This document shows positions 2 to 4,352 of a stretch of 38,854 bases of DNA, in pieces; the stretch's first letter is position 1; every line of letters begins with the position of its first letter. The stretch is from a virus: the IMG/VR virus record IMGVR_UViG_3300035698_007456, positions 1-38,854 of that record; one strand, given 5' to 3'. The notes beneath the pieces are model-generated. The model did not search any database and was not told the DNA's origin. It saw only the letters and a program-made list of their open reading frames with translations. The position numbers and the translations under genes were made by a program.

Positions 2-514
2 AAGAGAGCCGCAATAAAAGATGGACACCTGATAACAGCACCGTTGATACTGGACAACTGCGTGACGGAAGGGAGCTACGGGGCTTCGGAAGGCCCAGGC
101 GGGGTATGCGTCGACAAGAGGATGGGGCTGAAAAAAGATATGTCATTGGCTGAGAAGTGCGTCGGAGTGATGGCTAACTACTGGGGTAGCGGCGGGAACC
201 AAGACCTATGGGACAGCTGCACATTTGAGAAAGCAAAGGCGTTAATGTTCTCCCACATGGTACCAGAACTGAGAAGCCCTCGGTTCAACTTCATGCCGAT
301 ATTCGAGAAAACCATACCTAAGTTCGAATACTTATGGGATCTCTGCGGCCTAAGGATAAGTTTTCATGAATGGAAACTCATCACATCATATCTGTCCAAA
401 GTTAACCCACCCGGGTGGTGGAGATTGCTCACTAAGAATAGTAGCATGAACGGAGACAATGCATTCGAAGACCCGCCTATCGCAGATGATACGGCGAGGA
501 AGGAGGTAGCTTAG
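2..514 (+). CDS. Hypothetical protein, 5' end cut by window edge
   Basis: The frame is open from base 2 to the stop at 514 with no interruption, so the gene probably begins outside the window. A TTG at 44 is the first internal start-like codon and would give 156 residues, but no good ribosome binding site marks it. The sequence is a mixed globular protein with several Trp and Cys residues, and the C-terminal 25 residues look disordered and acidic. I recognise no family. It lies 3 bases upstream of the next gene and ends in a purine-rich run that serves as the next gene's ribosome binding site. It is therefore the visible head of the operon carrying the JAMM, E1 and ubiquitin-like genes. An E2-like fold was looked for and not seen. 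Confidence 0.7.
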   Translation, partial: KRAAIKDGHLITAPLILDNCVTEGSYGASEGPGGVCVDKRMGLKKDMSLAEKCVGVMANYWGSGGNQDLWDSCTFEKAKALMFSHMVPELRSPRFNFMPIFEKTIPKFEYLWDLCGLRISFHEWKLITSYLSKVNPPGWWRLLTKNSSMNGDNAFEDPPIADDTARKEVA

Positions 515-517
515 CCC

Positions 518-898
518 ATGAGTAACAACTTCGACTACCTAAAGGATGCGATGAATAAAGTTTCATCCAAAGAAGAGCAAGGCGAAAAAAGTTCTACATT
601 TTTCCAGCTCCCTGGCGAGGGATGCAAGATGTTATCACTGCAAGGCATGCAACGTGTACTGTATATTATATCTTATCTATCGAAGTCAAAGGCCGGAATG
701 CCAGTGAAAGCGAGCAGGGCCTTGAGTGATTTGTTCGAGGCCTTTAATGATCTATGGGCTGAAGACTCTGGGTGTGCAATACAAAGGGTTAATATGCATA
801 GTGCTGATATCGCATTGTGTATACAGGAAATCGAAGATACGGAACTTAAGTTCCATGCTTTCTTCGAGGCGATACATAACATAGGAAGGAGAACATAG
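518..898 (+). CDS. Hypothetical protein, mostly helical
   Basis: A 126-residue protein. The ATG at 518 is preceded by GGAGGT about 10 bases upstream, inside the end of the previous gene. The sequence is predicted mostly helical by eye (long amphipathic stretches such as LSDLFEAFNDLW). It has three Cys residues but no CxxC pair, and no membrane segment or signal peptide. I do not recognise the family. It is packed between the upstream unknown gene and the JAMM protease gene, whose ATG starts one base after this stop, so it is probably co-translated with the ubiquitin-like pathway genes. An E2 role was considered because the operon lacks an E2, but no HPN-like motif or Cys context supports it. 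Confidence 0.75.
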   Translation: MSNNFDYLKDAMNKVSSKEEQGEKSSTFFQLPGEGCKMLSLQGMQRVLYIISYLSKSKAGMPVKASRALSDLFEAFNDLWAEDSGCAIQRVNMHSADIALCIQEIEDTELKFHAFFEAIHNIGRRT

Positions 899-899
899 C

Positions 900-1898
900 A
901 TGACAGAGAAAAAATCTTGGGGACTCACTGGCGAGGTTGATCTCGAGGTTGTGGTCAACGAGGAAGAATTTAAGGATGTGAGAGAAAGATTGTTCGCAGG
1001 CAAAAGAAAAATGGTGTTCATCCTTACACCGATAGGCTTGTTTATGTATCGTGACAACGGGTTATGGTCTACAGTAACACCGATGATACATAATATACTA
1101 GAGATCAGCGGCAAAGATTCGCAAGCTCTGCTTACTAACGAGACGTATGTGATGCACGACTTACCTATCATACCGAGGGAAACTTACAGTAAGGTGATAA
1201 CATTCTTCGCAGCTGTAAACGACGAACATTCTTCGGAGTGTATGGTTCACCTGTATATTTCGAAGGATAAAAAAACATGGGCTGTTGTACCGCCTAAGCA
1301 GGAAGCAAAGGGAATGTACATAAGCCATTACGATCCTCCAGATTCATATGAGGGATACAATGTTGTTGGGACTATACATTCGCATTGCGACGCGTCTGCG
1401 TTTCAATCAGGTATCGACTCAGCGGATGAGATAAACAGGCCAGGAGTACATATTACCTTCGGCAATGTCTCATCAGAACTGCCGTCTGTCCATGCAAGAA
1501 TATGCGCAGATGGAATAAGTTTCAATCTCGACCCGAAAGATATCTTCCCGTACCTAGAGCATGAGCAGACCGTAAAGACACACCCGTGGATGAGATTTGT
1601 TAAGAAGACATCGTATGCTACCAGTACGTATTACGACAGGAAACACGGCGATGGATTCGGATCTAATTTCAGCGGTACAAGAAATACATATACTGGCGGT
1701 AAGAACGGAGTTGATAGCAGACCGCCAACAACCAGAGAAACTGAGGATACCCTGGCTAAGTGGAGGGAAAAGAATTTGAAAGATAAAGCTTCGTTCGATA
1801 AAGCAATCAAGGATTCATTTAAGAGCCTGCCAGTCCTTACGGTAGACGATGAAATATTCGAAGAGGAAGACGACGCAACCGAGGAGATACTTCTCTAA
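900..1898 (+). CDS. JAMM/JAB (MPN) metalloprotease, putative ubiquitin-like deconjugase
   Basis: A 332-residue protein with a complete JAMM zinc-protease signature: an upstream Glu (E113 in SSECMV) and HSHCDASAFQSGID (H160, H162, S170, D173), which fits H-x-H-x7-S-x2-D exactly. In this family the two His and the Asp bind zinc and the Glu activates water to cleave isopeptide bonds to a ubiquitin-like C-terminus. An N-terminal domain of about 90 residues precedes the MPN fold, somewhat like PRTRC protein A. The C-terminal 100 residues are Gly/Asn/Ser-rich and end in an acidic tail (EIFEEEDDATEE). The ribosome binding site is AGGAAGGAGAA. The gene lies 18 bases before an E1-like gene, in the same operon as a ubiquitin-like protein. 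Lambda gpK also carries a JAB domain, but this gene is far from the tail genes and is not fused to NlpC/P60. The fold assignment is firm; the substrate is inferred. Confidence 0.88.
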   Translation: MTEKKSWGLTGEVDLEVVVNEEEFKDVRERLFAGKRKMVFILTPIGLFMYRDNGLWSTVTPMIHNILEISGKDSQALLTNETYVMHDLPIIPRETYSKVITFFAAVNDEHSSECMVHLYISKDKKTWAVVPPKQEAKGMYISHYDPPDSYEGYNVVGTIHSHCDASAFQSGIDSADEINRPGVHITFGNVSSELPSVHARICADGISFNLDPKDIFPYLEHEQTVKTHPWMRFVKKTSYATSTYYDRKHGDGFGSNFSGTRNTYTGGKNGVDSRPPTTRETEDTLAKWREKNLKDKASFDKAIKDSFKSLPVLTVDDEIFEEEDDATEEILL

Positions 1899-1916
1899 CG
1901 AAAAGGAGGAACGCAG

Positions 1917-2597
1917 ATGGCAACGATACATCTTATAGGTTGCGGCGGAACTGGCTCTCTCTTAGCGAGGGTGTTACATCGCTTCATGGCTTACGACACA
2001 GACACTCCGAACCAGCTTCACTTGGTGGACGGAGACATTGTAGAGGAAGGCAACCTCGAGAGACAAGACTTCACAACAGATCATATCAGCGACGGTAAGG
2101 CTGAGTCGGTAGCGTCTATCCTACCGAAAAGCGATAAGCTGATAGTGAGACACACGGACAAATACGTAAGCGATAAAATCGCAGACGAGATGTTCGAGTC
2201 AGGCGACTGGGTGATAAGCTGCGTTGACAATCATTCAACACGCAGGGTGTTACAGGACTGGGCGTTGGAGGTAGACGACTCGGTACTAATAAGCGCAGGC
2301 AATGAGCTGGTGGATGGGAATTGCCAAACTTTCATAAGGCGTAAGGGAAAGAACATCAGGCCTCCCATATGGGAGAAGCATCCAGAGATACAGGAAGCAA
2401 TCGAAGGCAACCCCGCAGACATGAGCTGCGAAGAGTTGCAAGCAATCGAAGGCGGGGAACAAATAGTATGTATGAACAACATCATGGCTTCCATTATCAT
2501 GATGCATGTGTACGCTGTATCAAGAGGAGATGAGCACGCAATAGCAGAAACATTCGTGAACATCGAATCAGGAAAGATGCGTAGTACAATGCAGTAG
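1917..2597 (+). CDS. E1/ThiF/MoeB-like adenylating enzyme
   Basis: A 226-residue Rossmann-type ThiF/E1 protein. Visible features are the nucleotide-binding loop GCGGTG (residues 8-13), an acidic strand end LVDGD (36-40), the conserved N-x-x-R in GNLERQ (N46, R49), K61 in DGKAE, and the catalytic Asp region SCVDN (D104). A candidate thioester Cys is C171 in DMSCEE, followed by a Gln/Asn segment (EQIVCMNN) placed as in PRTRC ThiF proteins. It lacks the paired CxxC zinc site of MoeB/ThiF and is close to the minimal length for the fold. Enzymes of this type adenylate the C-terminal Gly of a ubiquitin-like protein. The start has a strong AAAGGAGG site. The gene follows the JAMM gene directly, and the ubiquitin-like gene comes after a structured non-coding stretch. 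Family is confident; use in protein conjugation rather than sulfur transfer is inferred from the JAMM neighbour. Confidence 0.9.
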   Translation: MATIHLIGCGGTGSLLARVLHRFMAYDTDTPNQLHLVDGDIVEEGNLERQDFTTDHISDGKAESVASILPKSDKLIVRHTDKYVSDKIADEMFESGDWVISCVDNHSTRRVLQDWALEVDDSVLISAGNELVDGNCQTFIRRKGKNIRPPIWEKHPEIQEAIEGNPADMSCEELQAIEGGEQIVCMNNIMASIIMMHVYAVSRGDEHAIAETFVNIESGKMRSTMQ

Positions 2598-2754
2598 TAA
2601 GGTAGCATATCTTGCGTTTTCGGTGTGAGGACACCCGGCCATTATACGGAGTACGGTCAGTAACAATAAGCTGGGATCTCCTGTAAACAGGAGATCGATA
2701 ACTACGAAGATATGTAACATCTCTTTGCAAACTCAAGGCAAGCGAAAGCTTGCG

Positions 2755-2889
2755 ACACAGGAAGGTATGGAGACAGGTGCGTAGCTATAGGTCGGGGACA
2801 GGGGGAACGTCCTTCTTCAGGCCTCTACGGACATGAGGCCTCCGCTTCGCCCTGAAGAAGACTTACCCCCCTGTCCGTATGACCTCGAA
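2755..2889 (+). repeat. Structured RNA module, copy 1
   Basis: The 41-base head at 2755-2795 matches 3028-3068 without gaps at 32 of 41 positions. It carries ACACAGGA, TATGGAG and GTAGCTATAGGTCGG. The tail GACCTCGAA (2881-2889) is identical to 3156-3164. AGGTC (2789-2793) can pair with GACCT (2881-2885), closing the long hairpin between them. The inner stem sequences differ completely from copy 2, while the spacing is nearly the same. Confidence 0.7.
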
Positions 2890-3027
2890 AGAGATGACTT
2901 GTTCTTAGAATTTCGTTCTTGCAATCCAATAGAGCGGTAAGGCGCTCGATGTATATTCTCGCCCAAAGTAACGTTGACGTATCATTTGCTACGAATAGGT
3001 GGTTCACGAGTGAAACAGAGGGAATAT

Positions 3028-3164
3028 ACACAGGAGATTATGGAGTCGGCTCAGTAGCCATAGGTCGGAGCTGCAGCACCCACGGATAAACGGACTCGAG
3101 ATGGACGCTGCGCTACCATCTCGATCCTCATACCCTTCGGGTGCTGCAGCTTCAAGACCTCGAA
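3028..3164 (+). repeat. Structured RNA module, copy 2
   Basis: Second copy of the module at 2755-2889, offset by 273 bases at the head and 275 at the tail. AGGTC (3062-3066) pairs with GACCT (3156-3160) around the 12-bp GCTGCAGCACCC helix. An alternative short hairpin, ACCC-TTC-GGGT (3132-3142), would compete with the 3' arm of that helix, so two conformations are possible. Like copy 1, it is directly preceded by a helix (here 2950-2960 with 3020-3030). Confidence 0.7.
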
Positions 3165-3305
3165 GAACGAATCCAAAACATTAAAGAAGATGACACGGGT
3201 ATGTTGTACAGTAATACCACAGTAGGTTTATCAAGATACATTCTAACTCTTTGGAGTGTACGCCTGTTGTATCGTGACAACAATCCCAAGTCGAAAGGAG
3301 ATGCC

Positions 3306-3824
3306 ATGAGCATCCAGTTCCAACTCGGTGGACAGCGTATTACCAGAGGAAGCATCTACGTCGGAGCAACCCTGCGTGATGCAATCAGCAGTCTTCGTGA
3401 TGAGGTAGCCTTGGACGGCCTCGCATCGAACCCCGGTATCAAGGTCAACGGTGTTCCTACAACCGCCCTCGATTACTGCATCACAGACGGAGATCGGATT
3501 GCTTTTATCGGTGCATCAGTTCCGACTCCAGCTCCAGCATCATCGTTCGAAGAAGCTGAAGATTATGACGACGAAGAGTACGACGATGGCGAAGAAGCGG
3601 TAGCCGGAGGAAGTACATTCATCTACGGAGTCAACGAGGATGTCAGTGCAGACCTCAACGGTCGTACGATCAGGGACGCGTATCAGGCCATGGCTATGCG
3701 ACTCGGTATGCCGAGAACGATGCCGCGTGAAGTGACCCTCGATGGTCGCCGTGCAACGCTCGAAAGCGTTATCCCCGAGAACGCAGTCGTCGAGTGGAGA
3801 CAGCCAGCGGGCAGCAAGGGCTAA
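3306..3824 (+). CDS. Protein with two tandem ubiquitin-like (beta-grasp) domains
   Basis: A 172-residue protein. The ATG at 3306 is preceded by GAAAGGAG; a longer in-frame extension to 3141 would run through the structured RNA and is rejected. Residues 2-70 and 103-166 each read as a small beta-grasp domain: two beta strands, a helix beginning TLRDAI or TIRDAY, then VNG or LDG turns, and a final DGDRIAF or ENAVVEW strand, as in ThiS/MoaD and PRTRC protein C. An acidic linker (81-98, rich in Glu/Asp/Tyr) joins them. The chain ends ...AGSKG, a single C-terminal Gly rather than GG, with nothing after it to trim. It is the likely substrate of the E1-like enzyme and target of the JAMM protease in the same operon. 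The fold was recognised from pattern, not from a search; the role is inferred from context. Confidence 0.75.
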   Translation: MSIQFQLGGQRITRGSIYVGATLRDAISSLRDEVALDGLASNPGIKVNGVPTTALDYCITDGDRIAFIGASVPTPAPASSFEEAEDYDDEEYDDGEEAVAGGSTFIYGVNEDVSADLNGRTIRDAYQAMAMRLGMPRTMPREVTLDGRRATLESVIPENAVVEWRQPAGSKG

Positions 3825-3845
3825 CAACAATGAAGGGAGAACGCT

Positions 3846-4115
3846 ATGACACTCCCTTCAGAGGATGAAATCCTCAAGCGTCGGGAAAGAGCCTTGGATA
3901 AGTTTAACAACTTATCCTTGGCTCGCCAAGCAGCAGTGAGAGAACTCGTACGCTCAATAGAGCGCAAGACATCAAAAGATGGAGTACGAGCAGCCTGTAA
4001 GGAAATATCTGTAATACTGGGTATCAATTCGCCATGCGAAATTGCAGAAAACAAACTCGAGACACCTTTCGGACTACGTAATTTGGCAAGGTTAATTTAC
4101 AACACAATCTCATAG
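3846..4115 (+). CDS. Hypothetical small helical protein, last gene of the ubiquitin-like operon
   Basis: An 89-residue protein. The ATG at 3846 follows GGGAG, and the gene starts 21 bases after the ubiquitin-like gene. It is rich in charged residues and predicted mostly helical (EDEILKRRERALDKF and similar). Two Cys residues do not form a zinc pair. I do not recognise the family. It is the last gene before the terminator at 4172, so it shares the transcript with the E1 and JAMM genes and could be an accessory factor or target. No E2 or E3 features are visible. Confidence 0.72.
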   Translation: MTLPSEDEILKRRERALDKFNNLSLARQAAVRELVRSIERKTSKDGVRAACKEISVILGINSPCEIAENKLETPFGLRNLARLIYNTIS

Positions 4116-4171: not shown

Positions 4172-4222
4172 GGGCGGTCGAAGCAGCGCAGACATGCGCA
4201 CGCTTCGACCGCCCATTTTTTT
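4172..4222 (+). terminator. Strong rho-independent terminator
   Basis: A perfect 13-bp stem, GGGCGGTCGAAGC (4172-4184) with GCTTCGACCGCCC (4202-4214), encloses a second hairpin GCGCA-GACA-TGCGC. It is followed by ATTTTTTT (4215-4222). It ends the ubiquitin-like operon. Confidence 0.95.
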
Positions 4223-4324: not shown

Positions 4325-4352
4325 TTGACTTTCGGTTGCTGTGCTGTATACT
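4325..4352 (+). promoter_or_regulatory. Sigma70-type promoter for the replication block
   Basis: TTGACT (4325-4330), a 16-base spacer and TATACT (4347-4352), each one base from consensus, with an A/T-rich upstream stretch. Transcription would begin near 4359 and leave a leader of about 75 bases before the first gene at 4434. It sits directly after the terminator at 4172, as expected for a new operon. Confidence 0.8.

Follow-up and report, generated by a model that had tools for sequence, protein, structure and literature searches.

Ubiquitin-like tagging raises a question in viral DNA whenever its enzymes appear there together: does a phage carry a conjugation system of its own and, if so, can that system work without an E2 conjugating enzyme? 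The viral record IMGVR_UViG_3300035698_007456 (IMG/VR) poses this question at its left end, where a single plus-strand operon (2–514, 518–898, 900–1898, 1917–2597, 3306–3824 and 3846–4115) encodes a JAMM metalloprotease, an E1-like adenylating enzyme and a double ubiquitin-like protein (UBL). The window analyzed here is the whole record, 38,854 bases in total with nothing cut out. A preliminary description, made from the letters alone, had read these genes as a ubiquitin-like conjugation cassette without an E2. We find that the JAMM, E1 and UBL genes are real and reflect no chance motif, that the same set recurs across phages, and that the operon probably represents a phage-borne ubiquitin-like conjugation cassette of the kind that uses E2 family D (E2_D; PRTRC-like, type 6d), cut by the start of the contig. 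The operon comprises the following features.

2–514, plus strand: 5′-truncated open reading frame (ORF) of at least 170 residues, likely the C-terminal half of an E2_D-type conjugating enzyme; putative catalytic Cys36 (GGVC)
518–898, plus strand: 126-residue protein between the E2 candidate and the JAMM protease; no significant family match
900–1898, plus strand: JAMM metalloprotease, PRTRC_A-like, 332 residues; PRTRC_A match and full E/HxH/S/D motif
1917–2597, plus strand: E1-like adenylating enzyme, 226 residues, candidate catalytic Cys171; ThiF and PRTRC_ThiF matches
2598–3305, plus strand: 708-nucleotide stretch with no credible gene, strongly folded (z −5.6), with two related hairpin modules
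3306–3824, plus strand: double UBL, 172 residues; UBL profile match and predicted beta-grasp folds
3810–3821, plus strand: codons of the C-terminal GSKG tail, a GxKG tail common to the UBLs of relatives
3846–4115, plus strand: 89-residue protein, last gene of the operon; no significant family match
4172–4222, plus strand: intrinsic terminator at the operon end; stem-loop followed by seven T

The putative catalytic residues of the JAMM protease and E1 enzyme are invariant

The protease matches the PRTRC_A model (TIGR03735) with E = 2e-8 and 34 bits, short of the curated cut-off of 101.8, and is therefore related to PRTRC_A and by rule a non-member. It also matches Prok-JAB (E = 5e-4, under the Pfam cut-off) in a region preceded by about 100 residues of the protein, and BilC only at E = 0.01. 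All 75 aligned relatives keep residues E113, H160, H162, S170 and D173 unchanged, which bears out the intact JAMM motif that the preliminary description had placed at 900–1898. The E1 enzyme matches ThiF strongly (E = 6e-24) and PRTRC_ThiF at E = 6e-14 and 51.9 bits, under the curated cut-off of 144.75. It is a single ThiF domain of 226 residues, separate from the adjoining JAMM protein and with no rhodanese domain. Residues D38, D40, K61, D104 and R109 are invariant in all 101 aligned relatives and Cys171 in 100 of 100, and because of this invariance Cys171, proposed earlier as a plausible catalytic residue, is a good candidate for the thioester cysteine. The JAMM–E1 pairing goes beyond chance, since most related viral loci keep the two genes side by side in this order.

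A double ubiquitin-like protein ends in a single GxKG tail

Used alone, the 172-residue protein gave no significant match in family searches. A leave-one-out UBL profile made from relatives of the same E1 clade ranked it first of 17,290 (E = 5e-4) and returned two domain matches, at residues 28–68 and 106–172. Structure prediction of both halves supports the two beta-grasp domains claimed from the sequence, with a predicted N-terminal beta-grasp at residues 1–74, an acidic linker and a C-terminal beta-grasp at residues 100–172. The C-terminal domain is predicted confidently, with a predicted local distance difference test (pLDDT) score of ~90 over residues 110–170, and aligns to MoaD (Z 8.9), SAMP1 (Z 8.4) and ubiquitin (Z 8.0). 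Predicted alone, the N-terminal domain is a beta-grasp with pLDDT 75 that aligns to MoaD at Z 8.9; in the full-length model it is poor (pLDDT 39–56) because the homologues aligned to the C-terminal domain only, and both domain predictions, including that of the N-terminal domain alone, were built on alignments of UBLs. The GxKG tail stands on the C-terminal domain, the N-terminal domain having none, and the AGSKG terminus fits the GxKG tails of relatives, including plasmid PRTRC_C (Azospira, GTKG). As modeled, the protein is a double UBL comparable to ISG15 or BilA, in which AGSKG is the one usable tail. The preliminary description had named two ways in which the cassette might fail, a 172-residue protein with no beta-grasp fold and homologues in which E1 and JAMM occur without it; the structure predictions return a beta-grasp fold, and most loci with both E1 and JAMM have a UBL.

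The composition of this tail has a practical consequence. Trypsin would be expected to cut after the tail lysine and leave a single Gly (+57.02) on the target lysine, so that the search for GSKG remnants suggested in the preliminary description would fail. The mass added in this way is isobaric with carbamidomethyl. The tail lysine is thus a possible reason why tryptic proteomics could have missed conjugates.

The cassette recurs across phages

Single-sequence scans of viral contigs with the E1, JAMM and UBL proteins gave no relatives, and queries built from alignments were needed. In annotated phages, tblastn located JAMM–E1 pairs in Vibrio phages D69, D181 and D148, Salmonella phage Arash and one gut scaffold, and Bacillus phage KLEB27-3 was added through its annotation. 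Alignment-based scans of viral contigs produced a set of 112 viral loci with this E1, the window included. JAMM is present in 85 of these loci, E2_D in 92 and all three enzymes in 71, with E2–JAMM–E1 as the commonest gene order. UBL genes were recognized in 65 of the 112 loci, nearly all with a GxKG tail, and all four parts occur together in 61. The search for JAMM–E1–UBL synteny in phages that the preliminary description had proposed recovers the triplet in 64 of the 85 loci with JAMM and E1.

UBL architecture varies among these loci. Some relatives encode two to five tandem copies and others carry residues past the GxKG tail, where a protease would be needed to expose the Gly. In phage KLEB27-3 one gene consists of four tandem Prok_Ub units (E = 5e-27) that all terminate in AGVKG; phage D69 encodes three UBL-like units with TGTKG at the end of each. 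In a quick tree of E1 sequences the window groups with loci L007, L008, L010, L012 and L020 (support 98), and all five of these nearest relatives have E2_D. The downstream position of the UBL gene is typical of this clade, since UBL likewise follows E1 on the 3′ side in L010, L012 and the L087–L106 group, where most copies have an N-terminal extension that gives a Rho_N match where tested.

Several loci show further arrangements. In L011, L013–L016 and related loci, E1 and E2_D are accompanied by a gene ending KKG/RKG just upstream of E1 and by no recognized JAMM, and in the L011, L013–L016 group the E2 begins ~1.4–1.5 kb after the E1 start. In L010, L012, L087, L091 and L094, a second E1-like gene whose product ends TGAA or NGAA lies downstream of the UBL. 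In several of these loci the next gene encodes a protein whose HPN...FC(I/L)P motif looks like the active site of a classical E2, and the two genes possibly form a second cascade in the same phages. On Alicyclobacillus plasmid p1 (L188, 4973–5914), a JAMM protein appears to have a UBL-like segment ending KKGATRG upstream of its protease domain, a possible UBL–JAMM fusion.

The record begins inside a candidate E2 gene

The claim that the cassette lacks an E2 was not supported. The first base of the record falls inside gene 2–514, an ORF open at its 5′ end, and this gene occupies the position of E2 in the loci of relatives; absence of an E2 cannot be inferred from a record that begins there. Family searches with Pfam and NCBIfam, PRTRC_B included, found no E2 profile match in the window, and Pfam, NCBIfam, tblastn and phmmer gave no direct homology for the 2–514 product. 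The segment around GGVC36 of this product aligns to the catalytic-cysteine segment of phage E2_D profiles, a register over the cysteine motif that came from clade-specific E2 profiles only. With three clade E2_D profiles the product ranks 1 (E = 0.17), 5 and 17 of 16,248, and with four other E2_D profiles 5, 49, 1038 and 87. Shuffles are a fairer test than the E-value here because the question concerns one pre-specified gene, and shuffled versions of 2–514 scored as high against the three clade profiles in 0, 1 and 11 of 20,000 cases. From this weak and positionally correct similarity, we consider 2–514 to be probably the C-terminal half of an E2_D-type E2 and the apparent lack of an E2 to be probably an artefact of the contig edge.

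Several observations weigh against this assignment and against the wider reading of the operon as a conjugation cassette. The best database E-value of 2–514 as an E2_D is the 0.17 given above, which is not significant, and its rank shifts with the profile from 1 to 1038 over seven models. True E2s that were left out and truncated likewise score mostly 26–127 bits (lowest 14), compared with 6–11 for 2–514. In the product the Gly usually found two positions past the Cys is missing, and the Asn-to-Cys spacing is 17, compared with 6–15 in relatives. Beyond this gene, 21 phage loci have E1 and E2_D with no recognized JAMM, so that the wider family does not strictly depend on JAMM, and we found no biochemical data in the literature for any family member.

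The cassette is a phage variant of a predicted bacterial kind

Type 6d operons, predicted for bacteria in 2006 by Iyer, Burroughs and Aravind, comprise a UBL, a JAB protease, an E1, an E2-like protein with a conserved Cys and an alpha-helical protein, the JAB protease bearing an N-terminal domain with conserved Arg and Trp, and phages are not listed for this type (PMC1779556). The cassette resembles them in its stand-alone JAMM next to a stand-alone, unfused E1, its small UBL ending in Gly (here the AGSKG tail), a putative E2 of family D and an extra small protein, and differs in that the UBL of the window has two domains and its E2 candidate is partial and divergent. PRTRC plasmid cassettes (A, B, C, E, F, ThiF, ParB) share the A–ThiF order, a B gene (E2_D) adjoining A and the GTKG tail of PRTRC_C; on Azospira pAZI09 the genes E, C, two hypothetical genes, B, A and ThiF are consecutive, and PRTRC_C ends VGTKG. 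In contrast to PRTRC members, the JAMM and E1 of the window score under the PRTRC curated cut-offs, and models for PRTRC B, C, E, F and ParB gave no match in a scan of its proteins that stopped short of the tail-side genes of what is itself a fragment.

The remaining systems are less similar in their parts. Bil (BilA double UBL, BilB E2, BilC JAB, BilD E1) follows the same logic of double UBL, JAMM, E1 and E2, and the double UBL modifier is shared by predicted architecture only, with no sequence match to Bil models. BilD has an inactive and an active adenylation domain (PMC11354881), whereas the E1 of the window has a single domain and lacks this feature, and the E2 of its relatives belongs to family D. 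The archaeal SAMP1/UbaA/HvJAMM1 system offers a MoaD-like modifier that is conjugated to proteins and removed by a JAMM protease (PMC4443979), and the C-terminal UBL domain aligns to SAMP1 as noted above; the SAMP1 system is cellular, whereas the window has a GxKG tail, a phage operon and an E2 family among its relatives. The TAPI/TAPK proteins of the lambda tail (UBL and JAB/NlpC) likewise pair a phage UBL with a JAB partner, but they form a tail module for which no E1 or E2 is reported (PMC1779556), whereas the cassette lies apart from tail genes. The window therefore holds a recurrent phage variant of the type 6d/PRTRC kind, a kind predicted earlier for bacteria. No paper that links PRTRC with phages and ubiquitin turned up in the open-access literature, and none of the search results there described a phage system of this sort; a prior description elsewhere is possible.

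Genomic context and other features of the operon

The operon closes with the terminator at 4172–4222, a stem-loop of −37.5 kcal/mol (z −7.95) before seven T that lay beyond the loop limit of the terminator scan. Downstream lies a promoter-like site at 4325–4352, followed by replication genes for an SNF2-type helicase, a PD-(D/E)XK nuclease and a TOTE-type primase. The right half of the window carries PhageMin_Tail, phage tail L, NlpC/P60 and SU10-type capsid genes on the opposite strand. The cassette thus groups with replication genes, apart from tail genes, in what is probably an early region.

Neither small protein of the operon could be placed in a family. The 126-residue protein (518–898) has no significant family match and no homologue found in related loci, and no homology to type 6d accessory proteins was seen; L007, L008 and L020 likewise have a small ORF between E2 and JAMM, and these ORFs share no recognizable sequence similarity with the 126-residue protein. 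The 89-residue protein (3846–4115) has no significant family match and no homologue among the related loci.

The stretch between the E1 and UBL genes (2598–3305) folds far better than its shuffles and contains two related hairpin modules at 2781–2886 (z −4.2) and 3054–3166 (z −6.4); a 41-nucleotide direct repeat (78% identical) precedes each long hairpin, which is closed by GGTC/GACC. It belongs to no Rfam family and no relative was found among the related loci. A 15-nucleotide motif from the stretch matched 73 contigs once each, and we took these matches as chance. The stretch may represent a novel structured RNA of phages, or else a leader for the UBL gene.

Proposed mechanism and alternative explanations

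In the pathway that we propose, the E1 would adenylate the terminal Gly of the GSKG tail of the double UBL and load the UBL on Cys171, from which it would move to the cysteine of the E2_D protein, represented by the C-terminal half in 2–514, and then to a target lysine. In relatives, JAMM may trim tandem or extended UBL precursors; in the window the tail is already exposed, and JAMM would mainly remove the tag. Conjugation by this cassette is likely.

As target class we tentatively put first the nucleoprotein factors of the phage or its host, those of replication among them, because the cassette lies beside replication genes and in sister phages the UBL carries a fused Rho_N/SAP-like domain. 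Gene context weakly ranks these factors above virion proteins, and virion proteins above host defense. We considered the DNA sliding clamp (dnaN) as a specific substrate by analogy with PCNA, a target of ubiquitin and SUMO, and rejected it: recognizable dnaN genes lie near only 3 of the 112 viral loci, and none was recognized in the window. A dnaN gene stands beside the cassette in L002, L026 and L028 and on plasmids L187 and L188.

The same machinery could instead tag virion proteins, either of the phage's own particles or of competing phages, as the bacterial Bil system tags phage tails. We regard this as somewhat unlikely and as the closest of the alternatives. It draws on Salmonella phage Arash, where E1, JAMM, E2 and the neighboring gp250 were detected in particle preparations (PMC10585845). 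Protein numbers in that study equal the GenBank numbers plus 1 in the cassette region, as reported coverage multiplied by GenBank length gives whole residues (267/346, 253/412, 244/320), and with this shift applied the spectra number 430 for E1 (gp246), 369 for JAMM (gp247), 226 for E2_D (gp248) and 379 for gp250. Against a virion role, the preparation held 116 of 252 proteins, replication and nucleotide-metabolism enzymes included, and its authors raise the possibility that abundant enzymes are mere carry-over (PMC10585845); in the window, moreover, the cassette stands with replication genes and not with tail genes. The Arash data suggest that the cassette enzymes are expressed during infection, with packaging only possible and carry-over likewise. 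The Arash UBL gene (L004, 107–304, ending GTKG) was missed in GenBank, where annotated gp251c overlaps it in another frame, and for this reason a search of annotated proteins could not identify the Arash UBL. A broader picture, in which a complete ubiquitin-like system with JAMM-processed polyubiquitin-like precursors belongs to the equipment of many tailed phages, and in which some of them package E1, E2 and protease in the virion to act on host proteins at entry, strikes us as improbable.

Use of the same machinery for counter-defense, with a tag that inactivates host immune proteins or a Bil-like system of the host, is unlikely. It would suit the probable early region beside replication genes, and in Vibrio phage D69 the cassette lies ~4 kb from an annotated inhibitor of host RecBCD. 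Plasmids carry this type of cassette too, in the form of PRTRC, which counts against it, and we know of no counter-defense role for PRTRC.

Two alternatives depart from E2-dependent conjugation itself. An E2-less system, in which the E1 itself, or some unrelated protein, passes the UBL to targets directly and 2–514 has no relation to E2, would account for the missing E2 profile match, for the weak similarity of 2–514 and for the 14 of 85 JAMM and E1 loci that show no E2_D in the stretch covered. We find it improbable, given that the record is cut exactly at the E2 position, that the five nearest E1-tree relatives all have E2_D and that 2–514 beats nearly all of its shuffles. A sulfur-carrier pathway, in which the UBL, turned into a thiocarboxylate by the E1, donates sulfur (for example to thiolate nucleosides or cofactors) and JAMM serves only to mature the carrier, is very unlikely despite the closeness of both UBL domains to MoaD and a weak ThiS similarity of sister-clade UBLs, as E2_D co-occurs in 92 of 112 loci, many UBLs of relatives are tandem or extended past the GxKG tail, a rhodanese domain is missing from the E1 and no gene of sulfur metabolism was recognized among the window genes tested (the neighbors of relatives were not systematically screened). 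On these grounds the preference for a conjugation cassette over a lone sulfur carrier in the preliminary description is supported.

Implications for phage biology

Bacterial ubiquitin-like conjugation is known mainly as host defense, in Bil and in the cyclic oligonucleotide-based anti-phage signaling system CBASS (PMC10097602; general knowledge), and for the E2_D/PRTRC branch predicted in 2006 we found no known function in the literature within reach. Full E1–E2–JAMM–UBL sets in the cultured phages Arash, D69 and KLEB27-3 make function testable in plaque-forming laboratory systems, and the polyubiquitin-like tandem UBL genes of phages bear on the evolution of such modifiers. Protein tagging with ubiquitin-like modifiers, most familiar from the cells of animals and plants, appears to be a widespread and unstudied function of phages.

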